Source: Amphirosellinia nigrospora (lineage: Eukaryota > Ascomycota > Sordariomycetes > Xylariales > Xylariaceae). From it: a stretch of 64,000 bases of DNA. Positions 1 through 39,859 of this stretch are shown piece after piece. Location of the stretch: the NCBI GenBank assembly GCA_004123355.1, contig SCHM01000001.1, forward strand, positions 2,348,001-2,412,000. The letters are read 5' to 3'. The translations under genes and the position numbers were made by a program. The notes under the pieces were generated by a model. That model was not told the DNA's origin and did not search any database. It worked only from the letters and a program-made list of their open reading frames with translations. Position 1 is the first letter of the stretch; each line of letters starts with the position of its first letter.

Positions 1-1881
1 ATCTGGATTGCACAGCAAAGAGGCTGAGAATAGGTCGCTTGGTCAACATTTGACTCCTCGCCACTAAGTAGAAGTTGATCCATAAGCTTCCACTTGGGAC
101 GGTACTCTGCCGGCAAGCTCTGGAGCGACTGATCAAGTTGTAAGATAATCTCACGGCATAAGCTATTTCGCAAATAATAGCTTTGCCCATGGCCGGCCAT
201 TGGGCACCCTGTCCGGTGAAGATGCCAAGTATATGCGGCTTCTTTCTGATGTCAGAGTTGGTTGCGATGGATTGCTTGCCTTCGACCAAAGATGCGTCGC
301 GTTCAAAGGCCTCGCAAAGACCTTGAACTGAAGAGACTGGGATCGCGTGACGAATCTGGAGATTCGATCGCTTCTTCAGCATCGTCCAGGCAAGATCCTG
401 CAGCTGTAGAGCTGGCTGGCTCTCGAGGAAGTGCTTAAGGTCTCCCATGCTAGCCCTTAGCGAAGCATCGGAATGTGCAGAGAGGAGTATTGGCACAAGG
501 CACGGTGTCGATGTCTGTATCTCACGACCTGTTGATTTCGACTCGGCAGTATAGGACTCGACGATTATATGGGCATTTGTGCCCCGAATCCGAAGGAATT
601 GACACTTACGCGCCTTGGTTGACCAAACTTCAGCTCAGGCCACGATTGTAGCTTGGTGACGACATGGAGATCTGAATAGAATGGGGCTACTCTGGGACTA
701 AGCTCATTGAAGAGCATGTTAGGTGATAGCAGCCCATTCTGAATGGCCATCGAAGCCTTGATTAATCCGGCAATACCAGCAGTACCTTCAGTATGGCCTA
801 TTATAGTCTTAATGCTACCGACGTAAAGCGGATCTTCGTCGGCCTCACGTTTCCTGTCGCCGAAAAATGCTGAAGAGATGGCCTGGGCTTCTTGTGGATC
901 TCCCGCCGGTGTTCCCGTACCGTGTGCTTCGAAATATTGACACCTATCCTCAGGCTTTGTCACGTCGAGGCCTGCTCTTTCGTAGACTTGGCGAATCAAC
1001 GCCTCCTGAGCTGAATGGTTTGGCATTGTTATTCCCGGGGTTTTGCCATCTTGATTAACACCGCTTTCTCGAATAATACACTCTATCCTATCGCCGTCTG
1101 CTATTGCCTGCCTAAGGGTCTTTAACACAACAGTGGCGACGCCTTCACCCCTGGCGTACCCATCAGCTGCGGAATCCCACATTCGAGAACGGCCAGTCGG
1201 TGAGAACATGTTCAGTTTACTGGCAGAGATAAAAGGAACTGGTCCCAATATCAAGTTTGAACCAGCAGCAACTGCCACCTTACTCAAGCCTGTTCGCAAT
1301 TGCTCGACCGCATGGTGAACAGCAACGAGTGAAGAACTGCAGGCAGTGTCGAATGTCATACTCGGCCCGTGCCAGTCAAAGACATAGGAGACTCTATTGG
1401 ACAGGATAGATGCTGATGTGCCGGTGGCGGCATAGATATTCAGGGCATCTAAGTCGTAGTTTTGATGATCGAGGAAATCCCGTTGCATCATACCAACATA
1501 AACGGCTGTAGGCGAACCACGAAGCTCTTCCATCCGTAACCCAGCCGAACAGAGACCCTCGTATACCGTTTCAAGAAGAAGACGTTGTTGGGGTCGATTG
1601 TATCGACCTCATTAGGAGGGATACTGAAGAAGGCCGGGTCGAAAGTGTATGGGTCTTCGTCCAGAAAGTAGGCATACCGCGCATTAGTACGGCCGTGATG
1701 TGACCCATCGTGATGATAGAAAGCATCGACGTTAAACCGATCTTTGGGACCTTTTTGACCAAGTCCCTAGGATTCTTCAGAAGTTCCCAGAGCTTTGAAG
1801 GACTGCTGGCACCGCCAGGGAAACGGCAGCCGCTGCCAATTACTGCAATGGGCTCATTATGCTGGGATCTCGATCGTCCAT
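1..1881 (-). CDS. Highly reducing polyketide synthase PKS-1, N-terminal part (KS and start of AT), cut by window edge
   Basis: This is the N-terminal part of a type I iterative PKS that condenses malonyl units into a reduced polyketide. The beta-ketoacyl synthase shows the expected opening ([15 protein letters not shown] near 1860-1815), the active-site Cys in DTACSSS (about 1340), the two His motifs [11 protein letters not shown] (about 930) and GHTEGTAG (about 800), and NSFGFG near 600. The acyltransferase opens with [12 protein letters not shown] near 215 and the gene runs off the window. The ATG at 1879-1881 is chosen because it lies 9 codons before the KS. The KS resembles the PKS-NRPS/LovB clade, so a downstream C or NRPS part is possible but not visible. 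Single-base frame breaks lie near 1850 (start to KS), 1741 (VPK/RFN), 1602 (DP/QQR), about 575 (a G run at FGG/TNAH) and 180 (MGK). Each is mended by one base, so I do not call it a pseudogene. Confidence 0.9.
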
Positions 1882-2577
1882 GGCTGCTATGGTAGACGTT
1901 CCCTGCAATGGGTCGCTACAGTCGCATGCGTCAAGGTGGTTTCTTGAAGATAGGTCAAAGTACGTGGCACTATTTGCAACATATCACAACAACACACGGC
2001 GAGTCATTCTGAAAGGAGGAGTTTATAAGTCTATCATAATACATCATCGCATCAATCATCAGCTCAAAGCTCAATGAACTAGTGGCGGTTATCTTTAGTA
2101 AGTACTTAAGTAACTATCGGTGTAGGCTTCATGCGCGGAGGGTGTTAGCGGTATAGTCGGCGTTTGGAGTAAGCGTACAGTAATTCTGTAGGATTCCACA
2201 TGTCCCCGAATGACCATGGTCACACAGAGCAGGCTGGGCTTCACAGTGAAAGTGCAAATCATGAACAGACTATGGTTTGAACGAGGGGGCTAAATCTTAT
2301 GTGGGATGCCGAGTTCATTGACATACTTTTCGGCCTTTCAATTAGTTTGGATATTATACTCTTCGCAGAGCGTTTATATCAGTGGTTGGTATTAGCATAT
2401 TGAACAATATGTCACCTTGGGATGATGCGAACAATTAAATCAACAAATAGCTGGATAGCTAAAAGATTGGATCTTCGGACTTCTGAGAAGTGGCCGAGAA
2501 TCTATCAGGATTCTAATGTACATTTCTATGATCAAATAATGTGTCTTCTATCTATCTATTTGTGTACTTCTATTTCT
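1882..2577. other. Upstream region of PKS-1
   Basis: This is the presumed PKS-1 promoter, between the PKS-1 start and the 3' end of the FSH hydrolase gene. Open frames here are short and show no family features. I see no further gene. Confidence 0.5.
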
Positions 2578-3289
2578 CTAACTCGGCGTGTCGATCGGCC
2601 TGTTAGCTGACGATAACCGCAAGATCTGATTCACCACTTCCGCCACCTCCTCTTTCCTCGTGGGCAGGTGGTGACCAGCCTCTGTTTGTATAACGGTAGA
2701 ATTTTCTAGACGATAATGATTCCGCACGAGCTTGCGTGCGCGACCGAGGCAAAAGTCTCGGTTGCCGTGTATATGGAGCGTCGGCACATCGATGTGAGCT
2801 TGGGCCTGGCCTTGAACGTGGGCCATGGCGGTGAGCCACTTGGATGCTTCGACAGGAAAGAAGCAGCAGCTCATGACAGCGAACTGTAGCCGTGGTAAAG
2901 AAGGGACTAGGCCCTGCTGCTGAACCCATAGCAACAGTGCGAGAGCCAAAGCCCCTTCAGAGAAGCCAATGCCGCCAACGATCTCTACTTCGGCGTCGCT
3001 GTTTGTCGCCTTCCATCTTGCAACTGACTGTTCAATCGAGGCGTTAATCTTTTTCATGCTCTCTTCGATAGGCGCGCCGCTGCCGGCGAACCAGCAGTAG
3101 TATGGCTCTTGGTCGGCGAAAAGAGGAAGAACGCCGGGCCCGGCAGCGCATTCTAGCGGCGCGTCGAGGAATATGAACTCAAACTCATGCCTCAGAAGAA
3201 AGCAGATCCTCGCTAGTTGCACGTTGAAGATACCCCTTCGAACCAGTGCCGTGGAAACAAAGGAGGGCTTTCGAGGGTTTCTTAGACAT
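2578..3289 (-). CDS. FSH1-family serine hydrolase, LovG-like (possible PKS product-release thioesterase)
   Basis: This is an alpha/beta hydrolase of the FSH1 (DUF341) family, about 237 residues, close to LovG in length. The N-terminus at ATG 3289 gives KALLCFHGTGSKG, the family's HG oxyanion motif, followed by NVQLARICFLLRHEFEF and FIFLDAP. The nucleophile is in GFSEGA (GxSxG), the Asp in HGNRDF, and the His in EAGHHLPT, in the right order. One extra G in a run near 3236 splits the first 18 codons from the rest, so a naive call starts wrongly at 3348. LovG releases dihydromonacolin L from the LovB PKS, and similar hydrolases accompany other HR-PKSs. Its place between PKS-1 and a trans-ER suggests the same job for PKS-1 (inference). 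It is transcribed in the same direction as PKS-1 and divergently from the ER at 4212. Confidence 0.85.
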
Positions 3290-4211
3290 TCTAATTCGAC
3301 CGTTGGTGAGTGATAGAGATAGCGAGGCAGGTAGTGATTGACTAACATGGTTGTGTTGAAGCAAACCCCAGTAGCAGTTAATCTCTCGGCACGAACCGAC
3401 CTAGCTTACCTAGCGTCTCCAAACGAAGTACCCGCTAACTATGGCTCTGTTAGTTAGTCTCTTAGTTCATCTTGCCGTGCCGAAATTAAATAAAAAAATC
3501 ATGGCTAGTGGATACTTCATTTCGGAGAAAAAAGGTGAGGATGGAATCCTTCGAGTTGAAATGAGCTGCACGCTACACTAACAGCGGCTGACGTGAGGCT
3601 AAGCTAACGCCTTGGGTATTGCGTTAGCTAGTGTAGATCAAAAGACCGACTCAAAACGCCGAAAGTGGATTCAAAATTCATAATGCGCGGCGTCGTAGGG
3701 CTCGAGCTAAGCCCCAGGATCTACGCCAAGGATTGGTGACCCTGGCCGCCGAACGCCAAGTTTCAGCTGCACTTATACGGAATTCTAGGCAATTGTCCAA
3801 CCTCATAAGAATGTGTGACATGATGTAAGTGGAAATACGCCGTAGACACAAGCTCACTCAGGGAGTTGAATAAGACAACTGCTTTGATAATGAACCAAAA
3901 TTACTTTATAAAGGCGACCAGCCAAGAAGGGGCGGATCTAGGTGTATAAAGGGGGGATCAAAGGGCTAACCACGAAAACTATCGCTTTACGTAGCTTGTA
4001 TCTTAGCTGTAGCGTCAGTTTTGATTTTATTAGGCACTTTATTATAATAATTTGAATAAGAAGTTCCTATATAAACCATATTAATAACCCGTTTCAGGTA
4101 GTCACTGGACGCCTATCCGCTAGTTTACACTGCTTCGCTAAGGTCGTAGGATCACCCAAGCCAACTCGCAACTAAAACTGTGGAACTTGCCTAGTTACCA
4201 CCAAACTCAAA
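3290..4211. promoter_or_regulatory. Bidirectional intergenic region between FSH hydrolase and trans-ER 1
   Basis: About 0.9 kb separates two divergent start codons, so both promoters should lie here. AT-rich stretches occur around 3480-3520 and 4020-4080. I do not recognise a specific operator, and there is no supported gene. Confidence 0.5.
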
Positions 4212-5422
4212 ATGCCTTCAGGCGGCAATGGAGTCACTACAATTCCGAAGACTCAGCGTGCGGTGATCATTGAAGCTGGAGATCAAGTGCGTGTACGAGA
4301 CGATGTACCCTTGCCTGCACTTCGAAACGGCCAGTTCCTCGTCCGGACTGATGCTGTGGCCATCAACCCCAGTGACACCAAGATGCGCGGCGACTTTGTG
4401 ACTTCTGGCGGTGTCCTGGGTACGGATTATGCGGGCACAGTCATCGCCCACGGGCGTGATGTCACCAAGGTCGCGATTGGCGATAGAGTATGCGGGGCGC
4501 AACATGCCATGAACGCCAACGAGCCGCTTCGTGGATCATTTGGAGAATATAACATTTCCGCCGGCAGCATCTGGCTGAAACTCCCCCGTTCCATAAGTAT
4601 CGAAAGCGGCGCTACATTTGGCGCCGGCATCAGCACTGCAGGGCTCGCTCTGAAACTCTTGGGGTTGCCTCTGCCTGATTCGCCAGTAGAGAAGCCTGCG
4701 CATGTCCTGGTATACGGCGGTAGTACCGCTACTGCGACGATCGCCATGCAACTGCTGAGACTGTGAGAGAAAACTCTCCCGATGTGTTCTATTAACAAGG
4801 TTGACATTAACTCGTCTAGTATCAACATGATCCCGATAGCGACGTGTTCTCCAAGAATTCTGATCAAGTCAAAGCATACGGTGCTGAAGAAACATTTGAC
4901 TATAACCAGCCAAACTGCGCTGCCGACATTGTGAGCCCCCCTTTCTCTGCAAGGTAGATTCGATAAGGAGGTCACTAACCGACATCTCTTCGTGCTGTAG
5001 AAAGCGTACACAAAGAACAATTTACGTTACGCTCTAGACTGCATCACAAATGTGCAAACTACAGCCTTCTGCTTTGCAGCGCTTGGTAGAGCTGGCGGCA
5101 AGTACGTCTCACTCGACCCTTTTGCGGAGCACGCCGCGGCAGCGCGGCCAACGGTGAAGACCGACTGGGTTCTCGGGCCCTCGATTTTTGGAGATGGGTC
5201 GACCTGGCCGGAACCCTATGGCCGGCCACCGAGTGAGGAGGGTCGTGCGTATGGGGAGAAATTGTGGACAATTGCACAACAGCTGGTTACCGATGGCAAG
5301 TTACGACCTCATCCTGTGCGGACGCTTGAAGGTGGACTTGAGCGAATACCGGAGGGATGGAATTGGTAAAGAATGGTCAGTTTTCGGGAGAAAAATGTGT
5401 TATTCGGCTACATAGTACATAA
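4212..5422 (+). CDS. Trans-acting enoyl reductase 1 (LovC-like MDR, zinc-lacking alcohol dehydrogenase fold)
   Basis: This is a medium-chain reductase that reduces the enoyl intermediate of an HR-PKS whose own ER is dead. Exons are 4212-4762, 4820-4930 and 5001-5422, with introns 4763-4819 and 4931-5000. The GroES-like half reads [13 protein letters not shown] and [13 protein letters not shown]. The Rossmann half has [18 protein letters not shown] (the GGxTATG-type nucleotide motif of LovC relatives), IPIATCSP and ALDCITN. The C-terminus [11 protein letters not shown] is followed by [13 protein letters not shown] and a stop at 5420-5422. Frame is lost once near 4852 (an A run) and once near 5356 (a G run). 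With one base added at each, the three exons sum to exactly 362 codons, the family's usual size. It sits divergently from the FSH hydrolase and near PKS-1, its likely partner. A second ER lies at 26.3 kb. Confidence 0.9.
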
Positions 5423-6043: not shown

Positions 6044-7826
6044 CTAGATAATCGTATTAACCTTGGCACCCGCTCGAACTGCAATCCTTGCCTCTACGCC
6101 TTCCTGTTTCGCTAGCACCGTCTCCTTAATCTTCCATTCTTTGTTGGGTTGACGAGATGGATCTGGTGGATTGTCAGTCTCTTCATTCATGGCACTTCAA
6201 CTCATCTAGGGAACTCACATCAAAAACGGAATACAACGTAGCTATCAGCTTATACATCTCGCATCTTGCAATGTTCTTCCCATGCAGGCCCGGTCACCGT
6301 GGCCCCAGGTAAGATCTGCCTTGTTCATCCGACGTATGCGCTCGACAAAATCGCTCTGGCTTTCGGCGGCGCCTCTCAGCCAGCGCTCCGGTCGGAAAGA
6401 GAGCACGTCACTACCGTAAACCTCCTTGTTAAAATGCGTGGCCCACCCGAGACGGCGACTGCCGTGCCCGGTGGCAGGACGTAGCCGTTTTCGACAGTGA
6501 GGCTTTGGCCTCGCGGAACGGCGCGTCGCGATAACATGGCTCCGATAGGGTGGCACCTAAACGACTCGCGAATGACGGCGTCGAGATACGATAAGCTCTG
6601 GACCTCGGCCCAAGATGGGGGCATTGCGAAGCCGGAGGAATCAAGCTCTGATTGCAACTTCGCTGCGACCTCGGGGTGCTTGCCACAAAATAAACGACGG
6701 ATGTCAGGCCAATGGTTACTGTGTCGGCGCCAGCAAGGAGCGGCGTGGTGGCATACCCATGCATTACAAGGTCATTGACTACTTGTGGGTGTTTTCCTTA
6801 CTGTCTAGGATCTGGGAGTAAGTCTTCCCGGTCGCTGGTTTTTACAGCGCCACTGGCCTTTCTTGCCTGGATGAGCTCGCGGGCTCGCGCTGGGAATGAC
6901 CCCATGCGCTTTTGGAACACGCTCGTGATAGGGGTCCTTTAAGAAGATTATGAACCAAGGCATGCTGGCGGCCTACTATGCGTTAGTGATTGCTCTCATC
7001 GAATCTTATACGTGCGGCACATACCATAGCTCGATATGTTTGAGCTGCATCAACGCCCTTGAACATAGCGGTCTGATCAGCTTCGCCTCGAATGAGGCCA
7101 AAATCCGCAGAAACTGTCAGTTTCATGATGGTATCATATGCAACTACTGAGGAGTCAGTAACTTCCAAACGCTTAAAATGACCCTTAACCTGTAGCTTAC
7201 AAAAATGCATCCACGAAAAGACGGGAAAGGCCTTTTCCGTCGCGCAAAAGTCTTGGTCTAGCTTCTTGATGAGTTGCCGTATACATTCATTAATGAAACT
7301 CTCAGACTTGGTAACATTTGACATTGCATATACGCCAGCGATCGGTCTTTTGAGTGAGGCATGAGTCTGCGTGTCCTCGCTGGCTATTAGACTTGGATAA
7401 TGAACCCCTTTAATTCGGTCCGTAGCGGCATCCAGTGATAACTCTAAGAAGATACGGTTAATTGGTGCCCTAAATCAGAGATCAAGATAGTATAACATGC
7501 CTTCGGAAACGGCGAGCGATTGGCATAGACGACGTCTATCATCGCCGGGTCCGAGAACATCACCGTTCGTGGACCAACCGCCACCGTCGGGCCATATTCT
7601 CTGTGCAAGCGTTGAATGACTTGACAAGTGACTCCATTGTATGCATCCACGCCTGGAAAATATCTGTCAGAGTATTAGTGTCCATATGCCCAAAAGACTA
7701 TGCTGAACTGACCTGTGTAGCGACGCCAAAACGGCCCTGGCACGCGCCATAAGCCTGTGCGAAATGGCGTCGCGAGGAACCAGAGAAGGCCCGCCGAAAC
7801 ACACAATAGGAGAAAGCGCCTAACAT
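6044..7826 (-). CDS. Cytochrome P450 monooxygenase 1
   Basis: This is a haem-thiolate monooxygenase, presumably ER-anchored, probably oxidising the polyketide. The chosen start at 7826 gives a membrane anchor rich in L/F followed by the proline hinge LWRVPGPFWRRYTG. Further in come EYGPTVAVGPRTVMFSDP, the I-helix AGADTVTIG (near 6730), ExxR as VIRESFR, the PERF region as FRPERW, and the haem loop WGHGDRACMG with the Cys ligand (near 6290). The tail runs to TAG at 6044-6046 and ends KVNTII. Several introns are visible, for example one beginning after RRYTG with donor GTCAGT, and a last one near 6160-6220. Frame breaks occur at the N-terminal anchor (near 7816), around the K-helix and WATHFN segments, and just after the Cys loop (near 6272). 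All major motifs survive, so the gene is probably functional. Confidence 0.85.
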
Positions 7827-8190
7827 TTTTTTTTAGTGCAGAGAAGATTGCTACAGCACCTCTAATTAGAATTGATGGTTGTATTCTACTAATATCGTAC
7901 AGTATACGTTGACGTATAAGCTGAGACAGTAACAGGGGTTGAGTACCGGTCAGCAAGTGTATGTACATCAATGGCTGAAACGCCGAACTCGCCGAATGAC
8001 GGCCCAGCTGAAGGTTGTCATCAGGGGTAGCTTCAACAGCACTAAGTAGAAACTCCGTGGGTTGTTAAATAATTAATACGCCACCGCATTCAGGACAGTT
8101 CGATTTGGAATGAATTGCAGGGCTGAAGTCATCATCGGCGAAGTACTCAGTTGACGCAGTTAAATCTCACCGACACCACAGTGTAATGTT
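7827..8190. other. Upstream region of P450-1
   Basis: This 364-bp spacer separates the P450-1 start from the 3' end of the acyl-CoA dehydrogenase gene. An in-frame extension of P450-1 reaches 7971 but adds residues not expected before the membrane anchor. I see no other gene. Confidence 0.45.
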
Positions 8191-10024
8191 CTAGCCCCTG
8201 AAGCTGCTATAATGGCGACCTACGAATTTTACGATTCGTCTTTCAAGACTAGAAGCAACTCGTAGCTTTTCTAAATCCTTCCTCTCCTGCATGACCGCCA
8301 TTTCGCTCAGAATCTCTTCACTGCCGCCTCCGATGACGAGACTCTCACGTCCCTGCTGATCCTCTCGACACGAGCTCCCGGTCCGCCTCGGGTATAACCC
8401 AGCGCTCCCATGATCTGCTGGCTCTCCCTCACCGCCAACTCAGTTGCCTTGGCGGCGTTGACTTTGGCCAAGGCGCATAAGCCACCGATATTTGTCCCGG
8501 CCTCGTCTGCATGCGTAGCATTTTTGGAGGCCATGTCCCTCACTTGCACTAGAGACTCGAGTAAGGCGTACGCGCTCATGATTTGCATACCCATGTTTGC
8601 GAACTTGAGACGTATGGTTTGGCGATCTATTAGTGGCTTTCCAAAGGTTTCGCGTGAAAGCGCGTATTGGTAGGCATCTCCGAGGCAGATGCGAGCAAGA
8701 CGGAGGCAGTTTCCTGCTATCCAGAGTCTTTCATGGTTGAAGCCTAGGGGACTTGATTGGTATTGAGGTTAGATAATGATTGTGACGTAGTTGACACTTA
8801 ACTGAGCATAATTAATTTGAACCCTCCATTGAGTGAGCCGAGTAGATTGGTATCTGGGACTTCGACGTTGTTGAACTCAAGAGACGCGCACCCTAATGAA
8901 GATGGTTACGAATGATACTAACTGTCTTTCAAATGAAACATACCGCTTGAAGCCACACCGGAATTCCGTATCTTAGTCCGAGTAACCCCTGTTGCATTCA
9001 GGGGAATGACCAACACCGAGATCCCAGCTTTTCCAGGACCGCCAGTCCGGACGATGGCGGTACAATAATCGGCGAAGAGTCCGTTGGTCACCCACCGCTT
9101 TTTCCCGTTGACGATGAATACATCATTATGCCGTTCGGCCGTAGTCGAGATACTAGCGACATCCGATCCGGCTACATATCACCGTAACCTAAAATCAGCC
9201 TCGGTTGTCTGCAATTACGGCGAAGACAGTGACGGTGCAGCTAACCTTGTGGCTCTGTGATACCTAAACAGAATCTGATCTCGCCTCGAATGACGGGAGG
9301 CAGCCACATGGCTTTCTGCTCCTGAGTGCCGAAGTGAATAATCGGGGGGCACCCAATCGCATTACCGCAGCCGAGAGCCCACAAAACGCCGAGAGAGCCA
9401 CACCGGGCCATTTCATCGATGGCTATCAGGTCATGAAAGCTATCCCATTCTTCCGGCGAAACGTCACCGGGGAGCTTCACGTCCCCAAGGTATTCCCGGG
9501 TCTCAGACGGGTTGATAAGAAGGGCTGTATAGCCCAACTCCGAATGGCGTTTGAGAACCTACACGGCGGCCTTAGTTTAGCAAGTAAAACAAGTTTCTGA
9601 AATCGTCAATTGGAGATGACGGGAGTTTCGATCTTACTGATTTTGGCACCGCCTCGTTGGCTTCCCACTCCGTACAGAACGGCTCTATCTCTGTATCGAC
9701 ATACCGTCGGATCTCCTCGCGCAGGCGCCTGTGCGAGGCCGTATAATTGGGGTTTTCCCCCCGAGAGTACCATAAGGGCTCGGCAAAAGGGTACTTGATC
9801 CGAAGAATTCCGTCATATTGGAGTCCAAGTGGGGTCCAGAACTGATATTAAGAAATGCGATGTAGACGAGAAGAGGAGCGATGAGAAGACTGTCTTGTCC
9901 CTTCCTGTGGCCCTTACAGTGGTATGTAACAATTACATCGATAAGGCAGCCGCCCACCTACCACTTTCAGCGAATACATGGCGGCTGAGAATTCAGGGCG
10001 GCTGAGAGGCTGATGTCGTAGCAT
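8191..10024 (-). CDS. Acyl-CoA dehydrogenase family flavoprotein
   Basis: This is an FAD enzyme that desaturates an acyl-CoA (alpha,beta). Recognisable parts in order are the N-terminal helices (LWYSRG, EEIRRYVDTEIEPF, about 9780-9680), the central fold EYLGDVKLPGDVSPEEWDSFHDLIAIDEMARCGS, IHFGTQEQKAMWLPPVIRGEIRFCLGITEP (about 9340-9245), the region around 9180-8880, and the C-terminal bundle QQIMGALGYTRGG, RVERISRDVR and GGGSEEILSEMAV, ending at TAG 8191-8193. Introns are present, one near 8810-8750. Frame breaks include 8338 (RVLVIGG) and a G run near 9757. The start is uncertain: the ATG at 10024 begins a short first exon, but the domain proper begins near 9830. No peroxisomal PTS1 tail is seen. 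It is divergent from an enoyl-CoA hydratase at 10320, which implies coordinated beta-oxidation-like chemistry on a pathway acyl chain (inference). Confidence 0.8.
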
Positions 10025-10319: not shown

Positions 10320-11314
10320 ATGAATGCGCCACAAGCACTACAGGCAATGGAAGCTGTTCTTAGCATGATGCGACTTTCGACGGAATTCGACATGAATTCA
10401 ATCAGCAATTTTCTCCTCTTGCCTTGGTCAAAGTCCCTTGACACTAATGATGATGAATCAGACACAAATTTGTTCCTACCTAATACAACGGCGCCAGCAC
10501 CGTTGTGGACATCGGTACAGAAATATGACGGATATGAGGTTTCGCGCCAAGGAAGCACGGTCCGACTACGTCTCGACCGAATCCATCACGGGAATTCGTT
10601 AACTATCACCACAATGAAAGACATAACCTCCCTATTCAAGAAGCTATCCGCAGACGACTCAGTGCACCGAATCGTCATCACGGGGCGGGGCGCTATTTTT
10701 GCACGGGGATGGATCTGAAAGAAGACCTCTTTACCTCAGCCGCGGATCGATACACGGTGCTCCACGATCTCTTCTCCGCCATCGACACGTGCCCCAAGCC
10801 GACCATCGCGGTCGTCAACGGCCCGGCGTTCGGCGGCGGCGTCGGGCTAGCCACGGTCTGCGACGTCCGGATAGCGTTGTCTACGGCGTACTTTTGCCTG
10901 AGCGAGGTGAAGCTGGGTCTATGTCCTGCGACGATCGCCAAATACCTGGTACGCGAGTGGGGAGTCGGTCTTGCCAGGATGGCGATGGTGACGGGCCGGC
11001 GCATCAGCTCACAGGTGCTGTATGATGCGGGCATCATCCACGCTCTTGCGCTAGACGTCGACTCTTTAGAAGCCTCCATGTGGGGGTTCCTGGACGATAT
11101 GAGATTCGCCGCTCCCCAGGCTGCTGCTCTAACCAAGACGCTGGTCCGAGAAACTGCGCGTGGTGATGAGGTAACCTCGGACCAAGTGGCTAGAGAGATA
11201 TTCGAGGCCATGTTGACGCCGGGATCGGAGGCGGCGCACGGTGTTTCGCAATTCAAGCGTGGCATCAAGAATATAGTCTGGGAGGAGTTGAATAATGAGC
11301 GTGGATCAGCATAG
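10320..11314 (+). CDS. Enoyl-CoA hydratase/isomerase (crotonase) family protein
   Basis: This is a crotonase-fold enzyme, about 331 residues, probably hydrating an enoyl-CoA. The domain starts near 10525 (YDGYEVSRQGS), continues with LRLDRIHHGNSLT and HRIVITGRGAIFC, then the oxyanion-hole segment NGPAFGGGVGLATVCDVRIA (about 10818-10875). SEVKLGLCPATIAKYL carries the conserved Glu of this superfamily. The wording resembles the methylglutaconyl-CoA hydratase-like branch. Frame changes once near 10697 in a T run (GAIF/CTGMD); one extra T restores TGMDLKED. The first 65 or so residues, from ATG 10320, are not family-like, so a later start or an unseen intron is possible. The C-terminus ERGSA is not a PTS1 signal. 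It is the divergent partner of the acyl-CoA dehydrogenase. Confidence 0.82.
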
Positions 11315-15779: not shown

Positions 15780-15801
15780 GTTGTGACGGATAGCGATGAT
15801 G

Positions 15802-15824
15802 ATCAATCAATCAATCAATCAATC
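15802..15824. repeat. ATCA tetranucleotide microsatellite upstream of the phosphate carrier
   Basis: About five and a half tandem ATCA units lie some 20 bp upstream of the carrier start codon, probably in its 5' UTR. Confidence 0.9.
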
Positions 15825-26164: not shown

Positions 26165-26345
26165 TCGTAGCTTTCTTATTTTATGAGCTTCCTTTATAAT
26201 GAAATAACCATGAATTCATCTTCGTGGAATTTAGCTTTCTGTGCTTTCAACTCTCCTCTCAGCCCGTCACAGAAGCCCCTCAGTGATTTATGTGTACTTG
26301 TACTTGCGTAATTATGACTACCCAAACACTATCCTAAATATGCCT

Positions 26346-27543: not shown

Positions 27544-28323
27544 CTTGACTATTAGCTCTGATCAATCAACGTGTGCACTAAAACTGACGATGTCTGGGCT
27601 CTAGTCGAAGATTGACAGTGTCGTTAATATCATGGGGCCGTACCAGTATGGCATGCTGAGGCATCTCAGACGACAATGGCCCGCTGACGTAAACACCTGC
27701 TGCCATTGCGATATGCAGATTTCTATGCAGATTTCATTGACCAGTCGACAGAGATCGGCGAGCCCACCAACTCCTTGTCCATTCTCGCATCAAACGTAAG
27801 ACAATGTCACGTCAACCCCGACTCGGCTAATGCACCAGTCGGCAATACCACGGTCAACAAGTCAGTAAAGTAGCGATTTCGGCATTACACATGTACGACG
27901 ACAATTATTTCGCCGATGCAAGACCTGGCGATCCATAATCATATGTCAATTCGAGACCTTATCATCGTCGTTATTCACGCTGGCTGGCATCTACTTAGCA
28001 AAACATGTACAAACCAGCTAAATTACTTATCCGTGTCGATTTGGAGTAGCATTTATGTGTGTTACAGATACGATGAGCTTTGGCTCCGGTTTCTAGTCGT
28101 TCATAACGCAAGATGGCGTCCGCTGGACGTTATGTGCTGCTATAGATCACTAAACTGTATAGTTTGTTTCCATTTCGCCGTCACGATGCTTGAAGGACGA
28201 TGTTTAGAATCGCTACTGTAATGCAAATAACACGAGTAATCCTACGTCAGGGGGTTGTCACAATATTCAGCTAGGATGTATTGCGCCTTGCCGTTCGCCT
28301 ACGGCCAATGCAAGATTAGGTAA
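27544..28323. other. Intergenic region upstream of trans-ER 2
   Basis: About 0.8 kb lies between the trans-ER 2 start and the SDR 3' end. A 101-codon open frame at 27916-28221 (plus) has no recognisable domain and is not called. Confidence 0.45.
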
Positions 28324-29503
28324 CTATAGAAAGTTTTTAACCTGCTCCTCAGTCCAGTCCCAAAACTTCTGGCATGTCCGCTACCGCCTTCAGCTTCAGT
28401 CTTCGTAGCTGCAATCAAGTCATTGCGGATAGAATACAGTCGGCCCCACGGAACAACTACAATTGATAATACATCATTAGCAATGCAATCGTAAAATGTA
28501 GATAGATACTGAGTAACTTACCCCATTTGCCAGTATCCTCCATAGTTAAGTCAGGCGACAAGGCGGCGTACAGCTCAACATAAGCCCCATTCACCGGCGG
28601 GTACAGAGCGACAGCCTTTAGAATCGCCTTCAGAGCGGCATGACTGTCTCTCCACAGCCCAGAGGCTAGATGGCCCGGGTTGACTGGCATGCTCATGATA
28701 CCGTCTTGAGCATGGCGCCGCGCAAACTCGACGCCATGCAGCCAATTGCCCGCCTTACTCAATCCATAGCGCTCTAGGGGCGACATGAGCGGCCAATAGT
28801 TCACGTAGTCGGCAGACAAGCCGCGCGATTTCTCTCCGATAGTCTCAGTAGCCATGGATGAAACCCACACGACGCGTACCGAGCCCGGGGGCAATTGACT
28901 AGCCGTCGATACAAGAAGCGGCGTCAATAGTCGCGTGAACAGATACGGCCCCAGCACGTTGACGCCGAGATGCACTTCATGATCCTGTGCCGTCTTGCTC
29001 TTTGATCCATCAGCGTCGCTTAATGTCTGGATGCCGGCATTATTGATTAGTGCGTGCAGCTTTGTCTCTAAAGACGTGAATTTGAGGGCAGCTGAACGGA
29101 CAGCGGCCAAAATCAGCCAGGTCCAGGGAAAGGAAAATTAGCGAGCCGGTCGACCCGGGCGAAGAATTCTTAATGGCAGTGATAGCCTCTGATGCTCGAG
29201 TCTCGGATCGTGTGGCGATGTAGACCTTTGCGTTCTTGGAGTATAGGATCCGAGCCGTCTCTTGCCCTGCGCCCGAACTGGCACCCGTGACTATGAAGAC
29301 CTGAGCACGGTAGTTCAGCAAGTAGCTTATAATCACAGTATTTTAGAGGAAACAAGTAGCTCTCGTACCTTATTATTCAAGTCTGGAACATGGTCCTCTG
29401 TAAATACAGGCTTGGGCGGGTACATTTGAGTCAACAAACTCGAAACGGACTGTCTTCCAGTCGGAGGCTTTCTAGGTTTAATTGGGGCGTTTTGCGACGC
29501 CAT
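28324..29503 (-). CDS. Short-chain dehydrogenase/reductase
   Basis: This NAD(P)-dependent SDR of the classical (retinol-dehydrogenase-like) type has about 340 residues. Exon 1 (MASQNAPIKPRKPPTGRQSV ... DHVPDLNNK) ends at intron 29301-29368. Then come VFIVTGASSGAGQETARIL (TGxxxGxG), LDLADF, HALINNAGIQ (NNAG), VVWVSSMATET (Ser), YGLSKAGNWL (YxxxK, the catalytic pair) and VNPGHL. Intron 28457-28521 precedes the last exon, VVPWGRLYSIRNDLIAATK, with a tail WDWTEEQVKNFL ending at TAG 28324-28326. Frame changes once near 29105 (LADF/RSAAL) and once near 28370 (RSFW). It is divergent from PKS-2. It could oxidise the alcohol or reduce the aldehyde released by the R domain, as SDRs do in betaenone-type clusters (inference). 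Confidence 0.88.
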
Positions 29504-30730: not shown

Positions 30731-33700
30731 ATGTCTAATTACAACCAATCCCTGAGCCTATCGCCATCATAGGCAGTGCGTGCCGCTTTGCGGGAGGAGC
30801 ATCATCGCCGTCCAAGCTATGGGACGTACTACGGGATCCGAAGGATATTCGTACAAAGATTCCTAACAGTCGGTTCAACGCTGAGGCTTCTACCATCCAG
30901 ATGCCACACCATGGCACATGAATGTCTTACACTCGTATCTTCTGGAAAGGATCCGAGGGAGTTCGATGCTGAGTTTTTTAATATCAAGGCCGTGGAAGCA
31001 CGGGCAATGGACCCGCAGCAGCGAATGTTACTCGAAATAGTATACGAAGCTATTGAGTCTGCGGGTCTCGGAATCGACAAACTACGGGGAAGCGATACTG
31101 CGGTGTTCGCTGGTCTTATGTGGCGACTATGAGGCCATGATGATGCGTGAATCTTGAGCAGGCGCCTACGTATCTCGCGGTGGGAACGTCTCGTGCCGTT
31201 CTCTCGAATCGCGTATCTTACTTCTTTGACTGGCACGGAGCCTCTGTCACTATTGATACAGCGGTGAGCAATTATCAAATCATTTCCTTCTGAGCTCAAT
31301 AGTTCCTTCTTAGGACTTGAGAGTACCTATAAGCTTCTGAAACCCTCACAAATCAGCTCCGAATGGCGATAACTGACTCCAATTGTTGTAGTGCTCTTCC
31401 AGTCTCGTGGCCGTGCACCAAGCCGTACACGCCTTCGGTCAGGCGACTCACACGTTGCCGTAGCATGCGGTTCGAATGTGATATTGGGCCCAGAACAATA
31501 TCATCGAGAGCAAGTTGAAGATGTTGTCACCCGATGGCCTTGGGTATGTGGGACAAGGATGCAACGGTTATGCCAGAGGTGAAGGTGTAGCTGCAGTGAT
31601 CCTCAAAACGTTAAGTCAAGCCTTGGCAGATGGTGATAGAATCGAAGCCGTGATCAGAGAAACCGGTGTTAATCAGGATGGAGCCACATCGGGGTTAACA
31701 TGCCAGCGCCAGCGCGCAAAAGGCTTTGATCAATCAAGTATACAGAAAAGCAGGGTTAGACCCTCAAAATCCATCGCATAGGCCGCAATAATTGAGGCAC
31801 ATGGAACCGGAACACCGGCTGGTGGTAAGCCTATTTCAAATCCTCGTCCTAACATGTTTCGAAATGTATGACTGATTACGGCCCGTTTTCTAGATCCTGT
31901 TGAGGCCGAGGCTCTCAGCACCGCATTCTTTGGCCCAAACAGCGATGTAGCTGTCAGTCCCATCTATGCGGGATCTATCAAAACTATCCTAGGTCATACC
32001 GAGGGCACAGCAGGTATCGCAGGACTTCTGCGGGTGACCCAGGCGATGCAAAATTCACCGTACCTCCCAATCTCCTTTTCAACGAATTGAGTCCTGCTGT
32101 GAGTCCATTTTACGGCAATCTTCAGATCACCAAGAAGTCAATTCCGTGGCCAGAGGTGGCCGAGAACCAGCCAAAACGAGCCAGTGTCAACAACTTTGGC
32201 TTCGGAGGAACTAATGCCCACGCTGTGGTGGAAAGTTATGATTCACCCAAGCCATCAGATACTATTGGGCCTCCGCTCCATTATTTCCCCATTCGTCTTC
32301 TCGGCAGCTTCTGAAGAGTCTCTTCGCTCGATCTGGCGGCGTACGTTGCTATCTTGATGCACATCCCGAGACAAGCGCTAGGGATTTGGCCTATACTCTA
32401 CAAGAGCGGAGATCGTTGCTCACCTACCGCGTCTCCTTCTCGGTCGCTACGGTGGAAGAACTGAACTCAGCTATTAAGGCTCGATTGGCATCGAAGATAG
32501 TCCGACTCTCGGGTTCGGACTAGGCCATCAGGGAACGGCCAGCCACCAAAACTACTTGGCGTCTTCACAGGCCAGGGTGCGCAGTATGCCCAGATGGGCG
32601 CGGAACTCATAAAACAATATTCCCTTGGCTCGCCAGGTCATCAAAGTATTAGAAGGTTATTAGCTGGGCTCCGGATCATCCACGTGGTCTCTCGAAGCTG
32701 AGCTGCTTGCTGATGCTTCGGCCACTCGCGTCGGAGAGGCGGAATCTCGCAACCCCTGTGCACAGCAGTGCAAATCATGATAGTTGACCAACTTCGCTCA
32801 GCAATGTCAGCTTTGCGGCGGTGATTGGCACTCCAGTGGCGAGATTGCAGCAGCCTTGCTGCCGGCTACCTTAGTGCTCGCGATGCTCGCCATAGCCTAC
32901 TACCGCGGCCTTCATTGCAAGCACGCTACAAGCCCCAATGGTGGCGTCAAAGGCGCCATGTTGGCAGCGGCACTTCATTCGAGGATGCCGATGAGCTATG
33001 CAACGAAGAGGCGTTTGTTGGGTGTTGGTGTTGCCGCCATTAACTCTTCTCTAGCGTAACTATCTCCGGGGACGAGGATGCCATCGTTGAGATGATGACG
33101 GTATTCAATGACGAGAATAAATTCAAGGCGCCTGAAAGTTGATACCGCTTATCACTCAACCACATGCTTTCTTGTTTTGACCATACGTCTCGTCTCTGCG
33201 AAACGCTGGCGTTGAGGCGAAGAGGACTGGCGGACACTGCACCTGGTACTCGAGTGTCTACTCCGGAAGACCAATTGACCCGTCGACAGACATGCTGAAT
33301 GACCAATATTGGGCCGAGAATATGACGAAGCCAGTGGCTTTCGCACAAGCCTGCCAGGCCGCCATCGCGGGTCTTACCAAGGCGGATCCGAACAGATCGT
33401 GTGGCGCTTGAGGTAGGACCCATCCTGCCTCGCAGGGCCTGCCCAACAAATATAGAGGAGATACTGGGGAGAAAGGTCCCATATCATGGCACCCTCAGCC
33501 GTGGCAGTGATGCCACGACAGCCTTCTCCGAAGCTTTGGGTTCCTTTGGAGTCATCTAGACACCGCCTCAATCAACCTAGCCAAGTCCAGGCAGCCATGA
33601 CCGGCCGTAGTAACTCTCTAGGTCGTCACCGTGTGCTCGGTGATCTACCTAGCTATCAATGGAAGCGCGGTACAACTTATTGGGCCGAATCCAGACGGTC

Positions 33701-36700
33701 ACGTCGCATCCGATTACGAGACCAAGCATACCACCCACTCCCGGCACATCTGTCCAGACAGTTCACCTCACTGTATGCGTTGGAAGAACGTCTTAAAGCC
33801 GAGGGAAATGCCGTGGCTCGAAGGTCACCAAGTACAAAACCAGATCGTACTTCCGCAGCAGCATATGTGTCAACAGCAGTTGAGGCGGCGCGTTCACTTG
33901 GTAGCGGTAAGACTATACGTCATTGAACTTAGCGGATTCCACATCCACAATGCTGTCACGTTCGATGAGGACGACTTGGGATCGAGTTTCATATCGAATT
34001 ATCCAAGATTGTAGACAAGGGGGCTCCATCACGGCACGGTTCACCTGTTCAGCCGCTCTGGAGGAGACACGGCCGAGCTCGCACTAGCTGCGGACGGGGA
34101 ACTTGAAGTTTCCTTGACTGATGAGTCTGATCCCGATTCTCGTCTTACTCTCTTGCCCCAGCGCCGAGATACTCCACCGCATGTCATCCCGGTTGAGGCG
34201 AGCCGTCTGTACGGTTTCATGAAGAGTCTAGAATACGACTTTTCCGGGCCATTCCAATCCCTAGCCAAACTTGAACGCAAGCTCGGCAGAGCAGCTTGTA
34301 CTGCCATTAAAGCCAGGACATCGATTGCAGATGCCGACGACCTCCTAGTCCACCCCGTCGATCTAGATGCTGCTTTCCAGTCCGTAATGCTGGCATTTAG
34401 CTACCCTGGCGACGATATGCTCGACTGCTACATCTGCCAACAAGCATCACCAAGGTCAGGGTCAATCCTGCCGTCCTTTCCTCCAAAGTGTATGCTGAAG
34501 ATGATACCACTATTTCGACTCGGAATGCAGTGCTTCGGACCGTGCGGCACCTGGAGATGGCTTCTCGGGAAGTGTCAGCATATATGCCCCTGGCCACGCA
34601 CATGCTGCTGTACAAGTAGACCAGGTTCAATTCAAACCAGTGGGATCTGACGCAAGCAATGACCGCGATGTGTTTTACAAAATGCATTGGGTGCCAAGCC
34701 AGATGGGGCCGCCGCTGCGGTGGATGTGCCAATCACCGCGGTTGACCACGAGCTTGTTTTTGTTTTAAGTCGCATTGCCGCCTTCTACCTTAGGATATTT
34801 GATCAAATGGTGCCCGAAAATGATCCAGCGAGGTCGGAAGCTCCTTGTGCCATTACCTCAACTACGCCCGACACATGACGGGTCTCCTAAAGCGTGGGGA
34901 ACATCGATGGGCTTATTTGGAATGGCTCAACGATATAGAGCAAGACGTTCTGGATGATATTGCATCCAAAGGGTAAGTGATGATTGAATTCCCCTGCCGT
35001 TTCGCTGTCTGAGATGCTAATACCTTGACCTTGACTCAAGTTTCATGGACAACTCGGACGTGAAAATAATGCTGCTCGTGGGTAAGACCATGCCTCGCGT
35101 CTTCAAGGGCGAGACGACGATGCTAGAGCATTTCCGGACTTCTGGTCTTCTGGACGAATACTACTCAAATGGCTTCGGAAAAACAAACAACTATCTGGGT
35201 TGGCAGTACGATCAAACAATTGACCGACCAACCCTCACTTGAGCATTCTGGAAATTGGTATGTTCTTAATCCCGCTTCTCTTTTGACCACCCTGCTATCG
35301 CTCTGACACCATGCTAACGAGATCTCCTTCTTAGGTGCTGGTACCGGCGCGCAACAAAGAACATTCTCGGAGCCATTGGTCACGACTTCGACAGTTACAC
35401 CTTTACTGATATCTCGTCCAGCTTCTTTGAAAATGCGGCAGAGGTATTCTCAGACTGGGAAACCATATGATCTTCAAAGTCTGCAACGCCGAGATCGATC
35501 CCATCGAGCAGGGTTTCCACCTGGATCATACGATGTCGTCGTCGCCTTCATGGTCATCCACGCTTGCGCAAGCCTCGACAAGGCTGTCGGTAACCTCCGG
35601 AAGCTGCTAAAACCTGGCGGCCTTCTAGTGTTGGGCGAGGGAGGTAGCGACGGCGCAATGCAGGCCGGCGCCGGCTTCATATTCGGTACGCTGCCAGGCT
35701 GGTGGTACGGCGTAGACGAGGGCCGTACGCTCTCGCCCTTGGTAAACCAATCGGAGTGGGAAGCCATCCTCAAGAAGAACCAATTCTCCGGAATTGACAC
35801 TATGTCACCTCCTGAGCTGTTCGACGCCTTTGGCATCACTCTCTTCGTCTCTACCGCTGTAGACGAGAGAATCGAGTTCATGCGTGAACCACGCTACCAC
35901 TACCACCACTTACAAAAAGGTGATCCTCGTCGGTGGTAAAACGGCTGCTGTGGCCAAGCTTGCCGAAGGCCTGCAGAGCCTTTAGCACCAATTACAGAGT
36001 CCTGATGTACAAGTCTGTGGAGGAGCTAGACGAGAGTGTGCTTGACATTGATTCCATGGTCGTCAGTCTCGTAGACTTGGAAGAGCCCGTGTTCAAAGAT
36101 ATCACGCCAGAAAGATGGGCCAAGTTGAGGGAGCTGTTCGTAGGCGAGAGAAAATGTTATGGCTCACTAGAGGGCGGCTTCAAGATGAGCCATGGGGCAA
36201 TATGACCGTAGGCTTCGGACGATCAGCCATGCACGAAGAGGATGCTCTACGGGTTCAATTTATTGATGTTCCAGATATCAATAGTCTTGATGCCCGGGAA
36301 CTCGTTCAGTATCTGTTGCGATTGACGGCCCGCCAGTTGGATAGTGAAGAGCTGCTTTACACCAAGGAGCCCGAGATCATGATCGACTCTCAGGGCCGGC
36401 GAGTTAGTGCCGCGACTTTTCACGATTCCGGACGCGAATGCTCGTCTGAACTCCACTACACGACCTATAATCCACGATGTGGATATCGGAAGATCTGTCG
36501 TTGAGCTGCATGACGACGGTGAGGGTCCTAGTCTACGAGAGCTGTCTCGTTATGAGACAGTCGAGAGCTCGTACGACGAAGGCATTCAGGTAAGTAATAC
36601 GCCAGGCATTTTGGCAATTCATACGATTTCAAAAGAAAACATTGCTAACGCGATGCATTCACAGTGGTGAGACTATCCAACTCCATGTTACCCACTCGGT

Positions 36701-39700
36701 GGCATCGGCCATCCGAACTCCCACCGGGTTTCATTTCCTCGTCCTGGGCGTAGACAAAGCCAACACCCGCTACCTCGCTCTTGTGTCTTCTCTCACATCG
36801 ATACTCGACGTTCCCAGGGAATCTGCTTTGAAAGTTGATTCTCCGAACATTTCGGATGTTGCTTATCTCGCGCACGTTGCCACCGAGCTCGTCGCTATGG
36901 CCATCGTCGAGCCCCTCTTCGCAGGCCAGAAGCTGGTATTGCATAGAACCCCTGAGGCAATCACACGGAGCACCGTTGAGCTGGCATCAACTAAAGGTAT
37001 AGACGTGATACTCACGGCAAACTCGGGAGACAAGATACAATCTTTCGCCCCTAGCGTCGTGTTCCCACGATTTGCTCCACGCTCTGAAGTGGCGCGGTTA
37101 CTGCCGTCTAACATAGCCTGTTTTGTCGGGTTTTCCAATCCTCAAGACGGCGAGAATGAATTAGCCATCCTTTCCTGCATCCCGACCCACTGTCGCAGGG
37201 AGAACCGAAACACCCTCTTTTCCACGGCTGGCATTAGCACAGGTTGCTCGCCAGCTATTCTTGGGCAAGTTCTATCACGAGCCGTCCAACAAGCGGTGGC
37301 CGACGATTCATCTCCACTCACGTCAGTCACTTTGGACCAAGTCGTCAGAGGGGAGAGTAGTAGTGATCCGCTGACTGTGGTCGACTGGACATCGACGACC
37401 ACTTTGCCCACGCGGGTCTCGCGACTGGAATCGAGACAGCTATTCAAAGAGGACAAGACTTACTGGCTCGTCGGCCTCTCGGAGCACTCGGAATCTCTTT
37501 GTGCGATTGGATGGTGGAGAGAGGTGTGCGTTATCTCGTTCTCACAGTCGAAACCCCAAGATCGATCAGCGATGGATCGACGATCACAAGGCCAATGGGG
37601 TCGTTATTAAAATTCTACTCTGGTATGTGGCTCTATTTCGAACCTAACTCTGTCCCTAATTCATTATATGTCAATATGTCTGGCTGATATGTCTGGCTGA
37701 CACGTCTTTCTCTCTTCTGTGTAGCGATGTGACCGACGAGAAGGCTATCCGGGCCGTCCATCAGACTATTGTCGACACATTGCCTCCCATCGTTGGTCTC
37801 CTCAACGGCGCCATGGTGTTAAGAGATGTCTCCATCCGGAATATGGAATACGAACAGGTCACAGATGTCATCAGACCGAAGGTGCTGGGAAGTATCCATC
37901 TCGATCGCATCTTTCACGATGTCGAGCTTGACTTCTTCGTGCTCCTGTCCTCGATCAACTGCGTGATTGGGAACATCGGCCAAGCTAACTACGCCGCCGC
38001 CAACATGGGCATGATTGGTGTAGCTGGAAACCGCAGGAAGCGTGGGCTCCGATCATCTGTCGTGAACGTCGGCGCAATCATTGGGTCGGTTACATCACGC
38101 AATCCGCCCGCCAGCTTGACTTGACCGTCGCCAAGACGGCCATGATGCATCTCTCCGAGCAGGACTTCCACCAGATTTTCGCAGAATGCATGGAGGCGGG
38201 CCATCTCGACAACCCCAGCGGACCGGAGATATCAACCGGTCTTCTCGCTCTCACGCCCGAGTCAACGCACATCCCTCCGTGGTACCACGATCCCAAGTTT
38301 GCCCGATTCCGTATCCACAAGTCCGCCGCCAATAGCAACAACACGAAGGACAAGGTGAGCTCGGCGTCTATCCAAGAACGTCTCCAGGGCTGCCAAGCAG
38401 AGGAAGAAGTATCTCAAGTCATCACGCAGAGCTTCAGCGCCCAGTTGCGCAGAATCCTACAAATCTCAGCCGCGGATGATGAGCTAATGATGATGCGGGG
38501 TGTCGAGCTCGGCTTCGACTCGCTGATCTCGGTTGACGTACGCTCTTGGTTCCTCAAAAATTTCCAGGTCAGCATCCCAGTCCTCAAAATCATGGCCAGC
38601 GACGTGCGCATGTCAACACTAGTACGGCTTGCGGTCGAGGGTATTCCTGCCGATTTAGTTCCTGGGTTGGAGCAGGAGAATGCCATCTCACCCGTTTCTA
38701 CTTCGAGTACGCCAGCAGTGAGCTCACACCGAACACGCCCCCGACCGAGCGGGCGTCGACGCCATCCGACTCTGAGGAGCCTAAGGCCAGCGGTGGCATG
38801 GTCGACTGGAAGACGGAGACACTTGCGCCGGAGCCTGACACCAATCCTCTACTCTCGGACACGCCCGCTCCCCGGGCTCAGCCGCAGGTTGTCCTCCTCA
38901 CAGGGTGTGCCGGGTTGCTAGGACATCACCTCCTCAACACGCTAGCAGCAGATTCGTCGATTCGCAAGATAATCTGTGTGGCCGTTCGGAAACTGTCGGA
39001 GCGGCTCGAGACTAAGCAACTCCCACCTCCAAGCGACCGCATTGTCTACTACGAAGGCGACCTAACGCAGCCGCGTTTTAGCCTCGCCAACGATACATGG
39101 GCGAGCATCTTCAACGAGGTAGACGCCGTCATCCACAACGGTTCCGACACGTCGCACCTCAAGTACTACTCGGCGCTGCGGCAGGCCAACGTAGTGTCGA
39201 CGCGACAGTTAGTCGCCGCGTGCCTTCGGCGCATGGTACCATTTCACTACATATCGTCGGCAGGCGTGGCACTATTCGCGGAGCGTGACGCTTTTCCTCC
39301 ATCTCGTGCACGCAGACGGGCAAAAAGCCACCAGCCGACGGCTCCCACGGCTACATGTGCGGCAAGTGGGTTGGCGAGAGCATGCTGGAGGCAGTGCAGG
39401 CCCGCCACCCAGCACTACGCATCGTGATCCAGCGCCCGTCGACCATCATTCGCGAGGGATGACGCGAGGTCCAGCGTGCCGGCTTCGATTGGGTCAACGT
39501 CCTACTCCATTATGCTCATAAGACGCGCACAGTGCCGCGCGTCGACCACAACGCCGGCGCCTTCGACCTCGTCTCCATAAAGACCTGTTGTCAAGACGTG
39601 ATGCGTGAACTGCAGGCTGCTCGGGCGAAGATAACAGCATCACATACGTCAACAATGTCGGCGATATCATCATCCCATGACTGCCATGGCGGACATAGGC

Positions 39701-39859
39701 CTAGACAAGACTGGCGAACGATACGCGGTGACACCTATGGACGACTGGATTCGCAAAGTCGTCGACGCGGGTATGCACCCGGCCGTTGCTGCGCTCATCG
39801 AGACTTTCGATGAGCCTGGGGTTGAAAAATATCCCAGGCTATTAAGGACAGTAGAGTAG
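30731..39859 (+). CDS. Highly reducing PKS-2: KS-AT-DH-cMeT-ER0-KR-ACP with terminal thioester reductase
   Basis: This is an iterative HR-PKS. The start is ATG 30731. [17 protein letters not shown]; intron 31264-31391 falls exactly between DTA and CSSS, and intron 31825-31893 is inside [21 protein letters not shown] (32575) and GHSSGEIAA (32828). [17 protein letters not shown] (about 33820) and [11 protein letters not shown] (34355). cMeT: LEI..GAGTGAATKNILG (35250-35370), [12 protein letters not shown], and [21 protein letters not shown]. An ER-like, apparently inactive region runs 35930-37450 ([21 protein letters not shown]). KR: VGLS with DVTDE and [19 protein letters not shown] (Ser/Tyr). 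[20 protein letters not shown] (38497). [16 protein letters not shown] (38890), [12 protein letters not shown] and [11 protein letters not shown] (YxxxK). The stop is 39857-39859. At least fifteen single-base frame breaks occur (for example 30752, 30880, 32310, 32828, 33500, 34430, 36420, 38110, 38710, 39300), but no domain core is missing. There is no NRPS C-A-T module. Reductive release to an aldehyde or alcohol is expected from the R domain. Confidence 0.9.

Follow-up and report, generated by a model that had tools for sequence, protein, structure and literature searches.

A LovB-type and a Bet1/CalA-type reducing polyketide locus of Amphirosellinia nigrospora probably form two abutting, independent clusters

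The described fungal pathways closest to the genes reported here are those of lovastatin, betaenone, stemphyloxin and calbistrin. We compared them with a 64,000-nucleotide stretch of Amphirosellinia nigrospora DNA (C1:2348001-2412000, hereafter the window) that holds two reducing polyketide synthases (PKSs), PKS-1 and PKS-2, together with their neighboring genes. In the lovastatin pathway of Aspergillus terreus, LovB requires LovG, in contrast to PKSs that end in a reductase (PMC6299560). Such a reductase end has been described for Bet1 (PMC6657885) and CalA (PMC6299560) and was proposed to yield an aldehyde. Bet1 is the PKS with the terminal reductase of the betaenone pathway, whose cluster also contains a stand-alone enoyl reductase (ER) and a ketoreductase (PMC6657885). 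The stemphyloxin protein SthB is berberine bridge enzyme (BBE)-like, and the betaenone producer has a relative of it at 74% (PMC11375781). Both kinds of synthase can occur in one fungus. The LovB-like Hybrid8-3 and the Bet1-like PKS8-4 of Pseudocercospora fijiensis lie on scaffold 8 and were described as two clusters, and for M. eumusae the available text of the same sources reports a LovB-like synthase without a Bet1-like one (PMC6657885, PMC4936691).

Here, PKS-1 resembles LovB and PKS-2 resembles Bet1 and CalA, and we conclude that the two probably belong to independent reducing polyketide clusters that abut. This conclusion draws on the gene families, the different ends of the two PKSs, the sharing of contigs by homologues of two left-hand genes (assessed by a proxy), a paralogue in which the right half stands by itself, and how distant the two PKS/ER pairs are from each other. 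The assembly comprises 48.1 Mb in 11 contigs. Besides the window we examined 30 kb to its left and 20 kb to its right, a span of ~114 kb. Window coordinates are used throughout, zero and negative numbers lying left of the window start. Open pieces were matched against Pfam, NCBIfam and PDB sequences; where frames break, gene ends were set by eye or with a gene finder, and unmatched pieces were placed by position or by eye.

PKS-1 is encoded on the minus strand at the left edge of the window, where its N-terminal part is found (1..1915; KS and the start of AT, upper end by eye). The gene extends 7.2 kb beyond the edge, to about -7170 (C1:2340830), and this part revealed AT, DH, KR, PP-binding (ACP) and Condensation domains plus an MT in Pfam. 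The KS piece (565-1608, minus) matched LovB with 511 bits and 223 of 338 residues identical (66%); identity to PsoA was 53%. The C-terminus is a single 812-aa frame of KR, ACP and condensation domain, which aligns with residues 2214-3037 of the 3046 of LovB (800 bits) and thus falls 9 residues short of the LovB end. The condensation domain extends to residue 801 of 812 and is followed by the stop, with a convergent BAHD acyltransferase gene at most 0.5 kb away. PKS-1 is accordingly a reducing PKS that ends in ACP-condensation without an adenylation domain, as expected of the LovB type. A stand-alone LovC-like trans-acting enoyl reductase, ER1 (4176..5369, plus), is also present; its piece 4176-4766 matched ADH_N and LovC (187 bits), and its piece 5001-5369 has no Pfam match, yet can be aligned with ERs from related loci. 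Next to PKS-1 lies an FSH1-family serine hydrolase (2578..3405, minus; PF03959, E 1.7e-29), a candidate release enzyme for PKS-1. The left half therefore shares with LovB, LovC and LovG of A. terreus the KS and the KR-ACP-condensation end of the synthase, the trans-ER matching LovC and an FSH-family hydrolase beside the PKS. Unlike the lovastatin locus, it also holds an acyl-CoA dehydrogenase, a crotonase and the BAHD acyltransferase. Among all 62 FSH homologues retrieved, none was named LovG and none came from A. terreus. In P. fijiensis, Hybrid8-3 differs from PKS-1 by extra nonribosomal peptide synthetase (NRPS) domains in the available description (PMC6657885, PMC4936691), none of which was found in PKS-1.

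PKS-2 (30739..39859, plus) is a reducing PKS that carries KS, AT, DH, MT and KR and ends in a thioester-reductase domain. Matches were obtained for KS pieces, the KS C-terminal extension, DH, MT and KR, with a weak AT match below cut-off; no ACP was matched in Pfam, and a putative ACP region is placed by alignment to PKS-1. The terminal NAD_binding_4 domain (PF07993) scored 82 bits over positions 1-142 of the 258 in the profile, and the best NCBIfam match of this end was the thioester reductase TIGR01746, below cut-off as a piece. A reducing PKS with a terminal thioester reductase, next to a trans-ER, a short-chain dehydrogenase (SDR) and a BBE-like oxidase, is the combination known from betaenone, stemphyloxin and calbistrin, and the same set recurs at a paralogous locus in this genome. 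In terms of described gene content, the right half can be likened to the betaenone (bet1-4) and stemphyloxin (sth) clusters by its reductase-ended PKS, ER, reductase and BBE; unlike these, it contains a second FAD enzyme. It also resembles the calbistrin/decumbenone cluster calA-M of Penicillium decumbens, with the R domain of CalA, the BBE-type CalF, the ER CalK, the PRK06196-type CalI and P450s (PMC6299560, as far as available). In contrast to calbistrin, no PF00144 counterpart of CalJ lies within ~0.48 Mb of the locus. No second PKS is placed on the scaffold of calA itself in the available part of that source (PMC6299560).

We favor two clusters because FSH and crotonase homologues share contigs that lack a listed BBE, a paralogue of the right half stands alone, and the PKS/ER pairs are mutually the weakest matches among the loci compared. 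Contig sharing was judged by equal size in base pairs, a proxy with which the organism names agree in 4 of 5 cases, and covered all 62 FSH homologues, the best 120 of 483 crotonase homologues and the best 120 of 1143 BBE homologues. FSH and crotonase had five contigs in common, from Pestalotiopsis fici, Hypoxylon crocopeplum, Aspergillus leporis, A. fijiensis and one JGI contig. No contig was common to the BBE homologues and either of the other two sets. In A. fijiensis, the BBE homologue is found on a contig of 609620 bp, and FSH and crotonase on one of 494386 bp. The best FSH homologue is PFICI_07940 of P. fici (75% over 77% of the query), and the crotonase counterpart there, PFICI_07937, likewise reaches 75%. 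The P. fici region PFICI_07937-07942 thus resembles the left half in crotonase, FSH and an adjoining PKS, PFICI_07941, next by number to the FSH gene and grouped with reducing PKSs that carry a truncated NRPS module in the available part of the study (PMC4320822). PFICI_07941 is the likely PKS-1 counterpart, the truncated NRPS module being as expected. That part of the study names no product for the region.

The paralogue of the right half lies at C1:5.7715-5.7895 Mb, ~3.4 Mb away, and comprises, on the minus strand, an ER (51% to ER2) and an SDR (46%) and, on the plus strand, a BBE (48%) and a PKS that reaches 47% to PKS-2 and has an R domain matched over its full length. ER, SDR and PKS keep the order and strands that they have in the window. 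Within the 50 kb examined at this locus, no piece of the FSH, acyl-CoA dehydrogenase, crotonase, BAHD, MFS or transcription factor genes was matched. We also compared both PKS/ER pairs with four related loci, picked because they matched the window PKS and ER genes. PKSs and ERs were compared piecewise, and bits were summed over pieces without a tree. Each PKS ranked the other last among five targets, and each ER ranked the other last among four; the sum for PKS-1 against PKS-2 is lowered by the missing condensation domain. Among the loci compared, C1:5.77-5.79 Mb was the closest for PKS-2 as well as ER2, and C6:6.6 Mb the closest for PKS-1 as well as ER1. Since each pair shares its closest locus, each ER appears to follow its own PKS type. 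Between its BBE and PKS, the paralogous locus further contains a frame with a fungal rhodopsin domain, and beside its ER a frame (5769623-5770888) that looks Zn2Cys6-like by eye, yet has no Pfam domain. Another PKS locus (C1:2.1088-2.1205 Mb), ~228 kb left of the window, shows condensation and reductase matches and one 40-residue KS piece 80% identical to PKS-1.

Several observations weigh against two clusters. The halves are only ~4 kb apart, and neither a transcription factor nor a transporter was recognised in the right half. In the contig comparison, the right half is represented by one gene, the BBE, and by its best 120 homologues of 1143, lower-ranked ones falling outside it. The 50 kb around the paralogous locus gave no match to P450-2 or to the second FAD enzyme. 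Genome-wide, ER2 ranks 6th of 16 matches to the N-terminal piece of ER1, so that weaker relatives exist. In the available part of the P. fici study, a second PKS, PFICI_07942, directly follows PFICI_07941 by locus number, which sets this region apart from the left half, and the lovastatin synthase was grouped with PFICI_00294, not with PFICI_07941 (PMC4320822). Given PFICI_07942, left-type clusters may contain two PKSs. By number, this gene lies on the far side of PFICI_07941 from FSH and crotonase, at the place taken here by the BAHD gene, and is therefore not in the position of PKS-2. Finally, 7 promoter segments from the left half and 4 from the right were set against 61 background windows, a small number. 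A dyad CCG-N13-CGG occurred in 4 of 11 promoters (2 left, 2 right) and one 8-mer likewise in 4 of 11 (3 left, 1 right), each with an uncorrected probability of 2e-6 among 7185 features. A regulator common to both halves is conceivable from these features.

A rival reading is a single two-chain pathway, in which PKS-1 and PKS-2 each make one chain and the BAHD enzyme joins them, after the two-chain design of lovastatin or calbistrin. In its favor, ~47 kb hold two PKSs and two trans-ERs, with one recognised transcription factor, promoter features in both halves, a BAHD protein with HHxxxDG-like and DxGxG-like motifs adjoining PKS-1, and, in the available P. fici data, a further PKS next to the gene that likely corresponds to PKS-1 (PMC4320822). 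We nevertheless consider this pathway unlikely. None of the five contigs with FSH and crotonase carries a BBE among the best 120 of 1143, the right half has its stand-alone paralogue, PKS-2 ends in a reductase, and no LovD-type gene lies within ~0.48 Mb. The lovastatin comparison allows the last two points to be made specific. LovF is not known to have a terminal reductase. No LovF-like PKS was recognised in the span, where the only PKS besides PKS-1 is the reductase-ended PKS-2, and the next KS match leftward lies ~88 kb past PKS-1. The nearest of 28 matches to the LovD family (PF00144) is at C1:2874110, ~0.48 Mb from PKS-2. No extra HMG-CoA reductase was found near the locus; the three matches in the genome belong to one gene at C1:8.48 Mb, ~6 Mb off. 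Because of the reductase end of PKS-2 and the lack of a LovD-type gene and of a second HMG-CoA reductase nearby, the lovastatin comparison fits PKS-1 and not the pair. A lovastatin-style two-chain pathway is disfavored for the same PKS-2 end, for the missing PF00144 gene and because the halves occur separately; a statin self-resistance copy was considered and rejected as well, the cluster containing no HMG-CoA reductase gene. An earlier note on this DNA, made from its letters, had left the choice open between a lovastatin-like two-chain pathway and two abutting clusters divided at ~13.6-17.7 kb. The former, in its specific form, is not supported, given the PKS-2 reductase and the absence of PF00144 within ~0.48 Mb, and the latter is supported by the FSH/crotonase contigs without a listed BBE and by the right-half paralogue. 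More generally, neighboring PKS genes need not form one pathway, and here the paralogue and the shared contigs favor separating the halves.

Many genes of the span show frame changes, and one may ask whether the locus is a decayed cluster of pseudogenes. We regard this as very improbable, as the same kind of breaks occurs in some essential genes. One gene for a second-largest RNA-polymerase subunit (C6:2233230-2234286) falls into six abutting or overlapping pieces that leave no room for introns, and a chaperonin (CCT) gene (C1:13069828-13071377) is likewise split into overlapping pieces without intron room; other chaperonin genes read through as single open frames. Such breaks in essential genes point to uncorrected assembly errors (indels) and support the earlier suspicion of sequence errors. 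The break at the KS active site of PKS-2 is intron-like, the DTA-CSSS motif resuming after it, and is probably an intron. Furthermore, long pieces are open, including the PKS-1 C-terminus (812 aa), the BAHD gene (489 aa) and part of the BBE gene (352 aa). That a single cluster grew by local duplication of a PKS/ER pair is scarcely credible: both ERs match LovC and both PKSs align with each other, but PKS-2 is 37% identical to PKS-1 against 47% to the PKS at C1:5.78 Mb, ER2 is 33% identical to ER1 but shares 51% with its C1:5.77 Mb counterpart, the pairs are mutually the weakest among the loci compared, and the C-terminal domains of the two PKSs differ.

Under the reading of two independent clusters, the left one would span ~-14.7 to 13.5 kb and be expressed independently of its neighbor. 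PKS-1 with its own ER1 would build a reduced chain, perhaps with a decalin as for LovB, and the FSH hydrolase may release this chain in the role that LovG has for LovB. Two P450s could then oxidise the released chain, P450-1 (6245..8064, minus; PF00067 on 6376-6771, with 6245-6556 below cut-off and the N-terminal end by eye) and P450-3, left of the window at about -11.4 to -9.9 kb (minus; Pfam). The acyl-CoA dehydrogenase (8307..9847, minus; Acyl-CoA_dh_1 on 8307-8768, Acyl-CoA_dh_N on 9241-9558 and 9572-9847) and the crotonase may prepare an acyl group bound to CoA or remodel it. The crotonase (10320..11314, plus, start by eye) resembles isohexenylglutaconyl-CoA hydratase and matched ECH_1, NCBIfam and PDB entries on 10538-11314. 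The BAHD acyltransferase, encoded left of the window in one open frame of 489 aa (-9107 to -7638, plus), would attach this acyl group to a hydroxyl. An MFS transporter, also left of the window (about -14.7 to -12.3 kb, minus; Pfam), could export the product, and the Zn2Cys6 transcription factor (12260..13521, minus; PF00172 on 12943-13521, no Pfam match on 12260-12796) would activate the left genes. A HET-domain frame was seen still further left than the MFS gene.

The gene classes named in the earlier note (PKSs, ERs, P450s, flavoenzymes, SDR, FSH, acyl-CoA dehydrogenase, crotonase and Zn2Cys6) were each found at or near the place it gave, and the two PKSs do face outward, PKS-1 on minus and PKS-2 on plus. 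It had the PKSs enclose one set of tailoring genes. The genes between them are as described, but the enclosure does not hold, since BAHD, P450-3 and MFS lie beyond PKS-1. Equally, PKS-1 does sit at the left edge as proposed, with the gene running on to about -7170, and a mitochondrial carrier gene between the halves had gone unlisted.

We tentatively propose, without giving it much weight, that the left half is a LovB-type pathway in which the LovF/LovD side-chain route has been replaced, the acyl-CoA dehydrogenase and crotonase making the side-chain acyl-CoA and the BAHD enzyme attaching it. In a bolder form of this proposal, BAHD would couple what PKS-1 makes with the chain that PKS-2 releases reductively, so that the abutting clusters give a two-decalin conjugate. 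Among the best 120 of 483 crotonase homologues, the nearest with telling names are Alternaria ACT-toxin biosynthesis protein 6 (ACTT6, 61%) and AKT6-1 (58%). This kinship indicates the family of the enzyme, not its product. Many relatives of the crotonase carry a PF00682 HMG-CoA-lyase-type domain fused to the hydratase. For Alternaria EDA toxins, chain shortening is peroxisomal. We considered such a route for the left half and rejected it: the FSH and crotonase of the window end without a peroxisomal targeting signal 1 (PTS1)-like sequence, and such ends were seen in 0 of 62 FSH relatives and in 45 of the best 120 of 483 crotonase relatives, none of them in the first 25. In the literature searched, we found no described product for the left locus, and nothing that treats LovB, LovG, acyl-CoA dehydrogenase and enoyl-CoA hydratase together. 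The left locus appears to be a cluster of the LovB type, and its FSH and crotonase genes co-occur in no fewer than five further sequences. Together with the lack of a described product in that search, this makes it a reasonable target for a statin-clade polyketide with a different side-chain route.

The right cluster would extend from ~17.8 to 39.9 kb, with the Bet1/CalA-type PKS-2 and ER2 building a chain that is probably released as an aldehyde via the R domain. ER2 (26393..27561, minus) is a LovC-like trans-acting enoyl reductase with ADH_N and LovC (58 bits) matches on 26981-27391. BBE, P450-2, the second FAD enzyme and the SDR could then oxidise, cyclise or aldol-close, and reduce this aldehyde. 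The BBE-like FAD oxidase (17820..19611, plus; PF08031 on 18553-19611, start by eye) opens the right half, and its best 120 homologues of 1143 include one annotated as bifunctional decalin synthase calF. P450-2 (22322..23849, minus) matched PF00067 on 22497-23117, with ends set by gene finder and eye. The second FAD/NAD(P)-binding oxidoreductase (24771..26111, plus) matched NAD_binding_8 on 24771-25013, its pieces 25373-25858 and 25731-26111 being without Pfam match; it found no match in the four related loci. The SDR (28457..29503, minus; tested piece 28457-29137) is PRK06196-like, and as pieces it scored under the curated cut-offs, with 26.4 bits for adh_short (cut-off 26.6) and PRK06196 as best NCBIfam match, below cut-off.

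The mitochondrial carrier family gene between the halves (14524..15779, minus) matched PF00153 in three stretches on 14524-15504, its upper end set by gene finder. When the seam sequence 15810-17850 was searched, its sole match was itself. Besides the features common to both halves, the promoter comparison gave another 8-mer, the best of those confined to the left, in 4 of 7 left promoters (1.5e-7, uncorrected over 4346 features). Its 6 occurrences in the 114 kb all fall in the left region and 0 in the right, and two or three of the six are intragenic; six occurrences in 190 kb of other loci are near chance. The P450-1 promoter segment overlaps a possible coding start, so that one hit may be intragenic.

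Scans of the window with Rfam at gathering thresholds and for tRNA each gave 0 matches. Between BBE and P450-2 lie two dispersed repeat families (20264-20423 and 21748-21990), whose listed copies are 88-90% and 77-85% alike; scoring covered 40 of 469 candidates. Rightward of PKS-2 we observed a STE3-like pheromone-receptor piece (41561-42334) and pieces of a Doa10/MARCHF6-type E3 ligase in overlapping frames (47913-53133), with RINGv on 52618-53133 and MARCHF6_C on 48242-49048.

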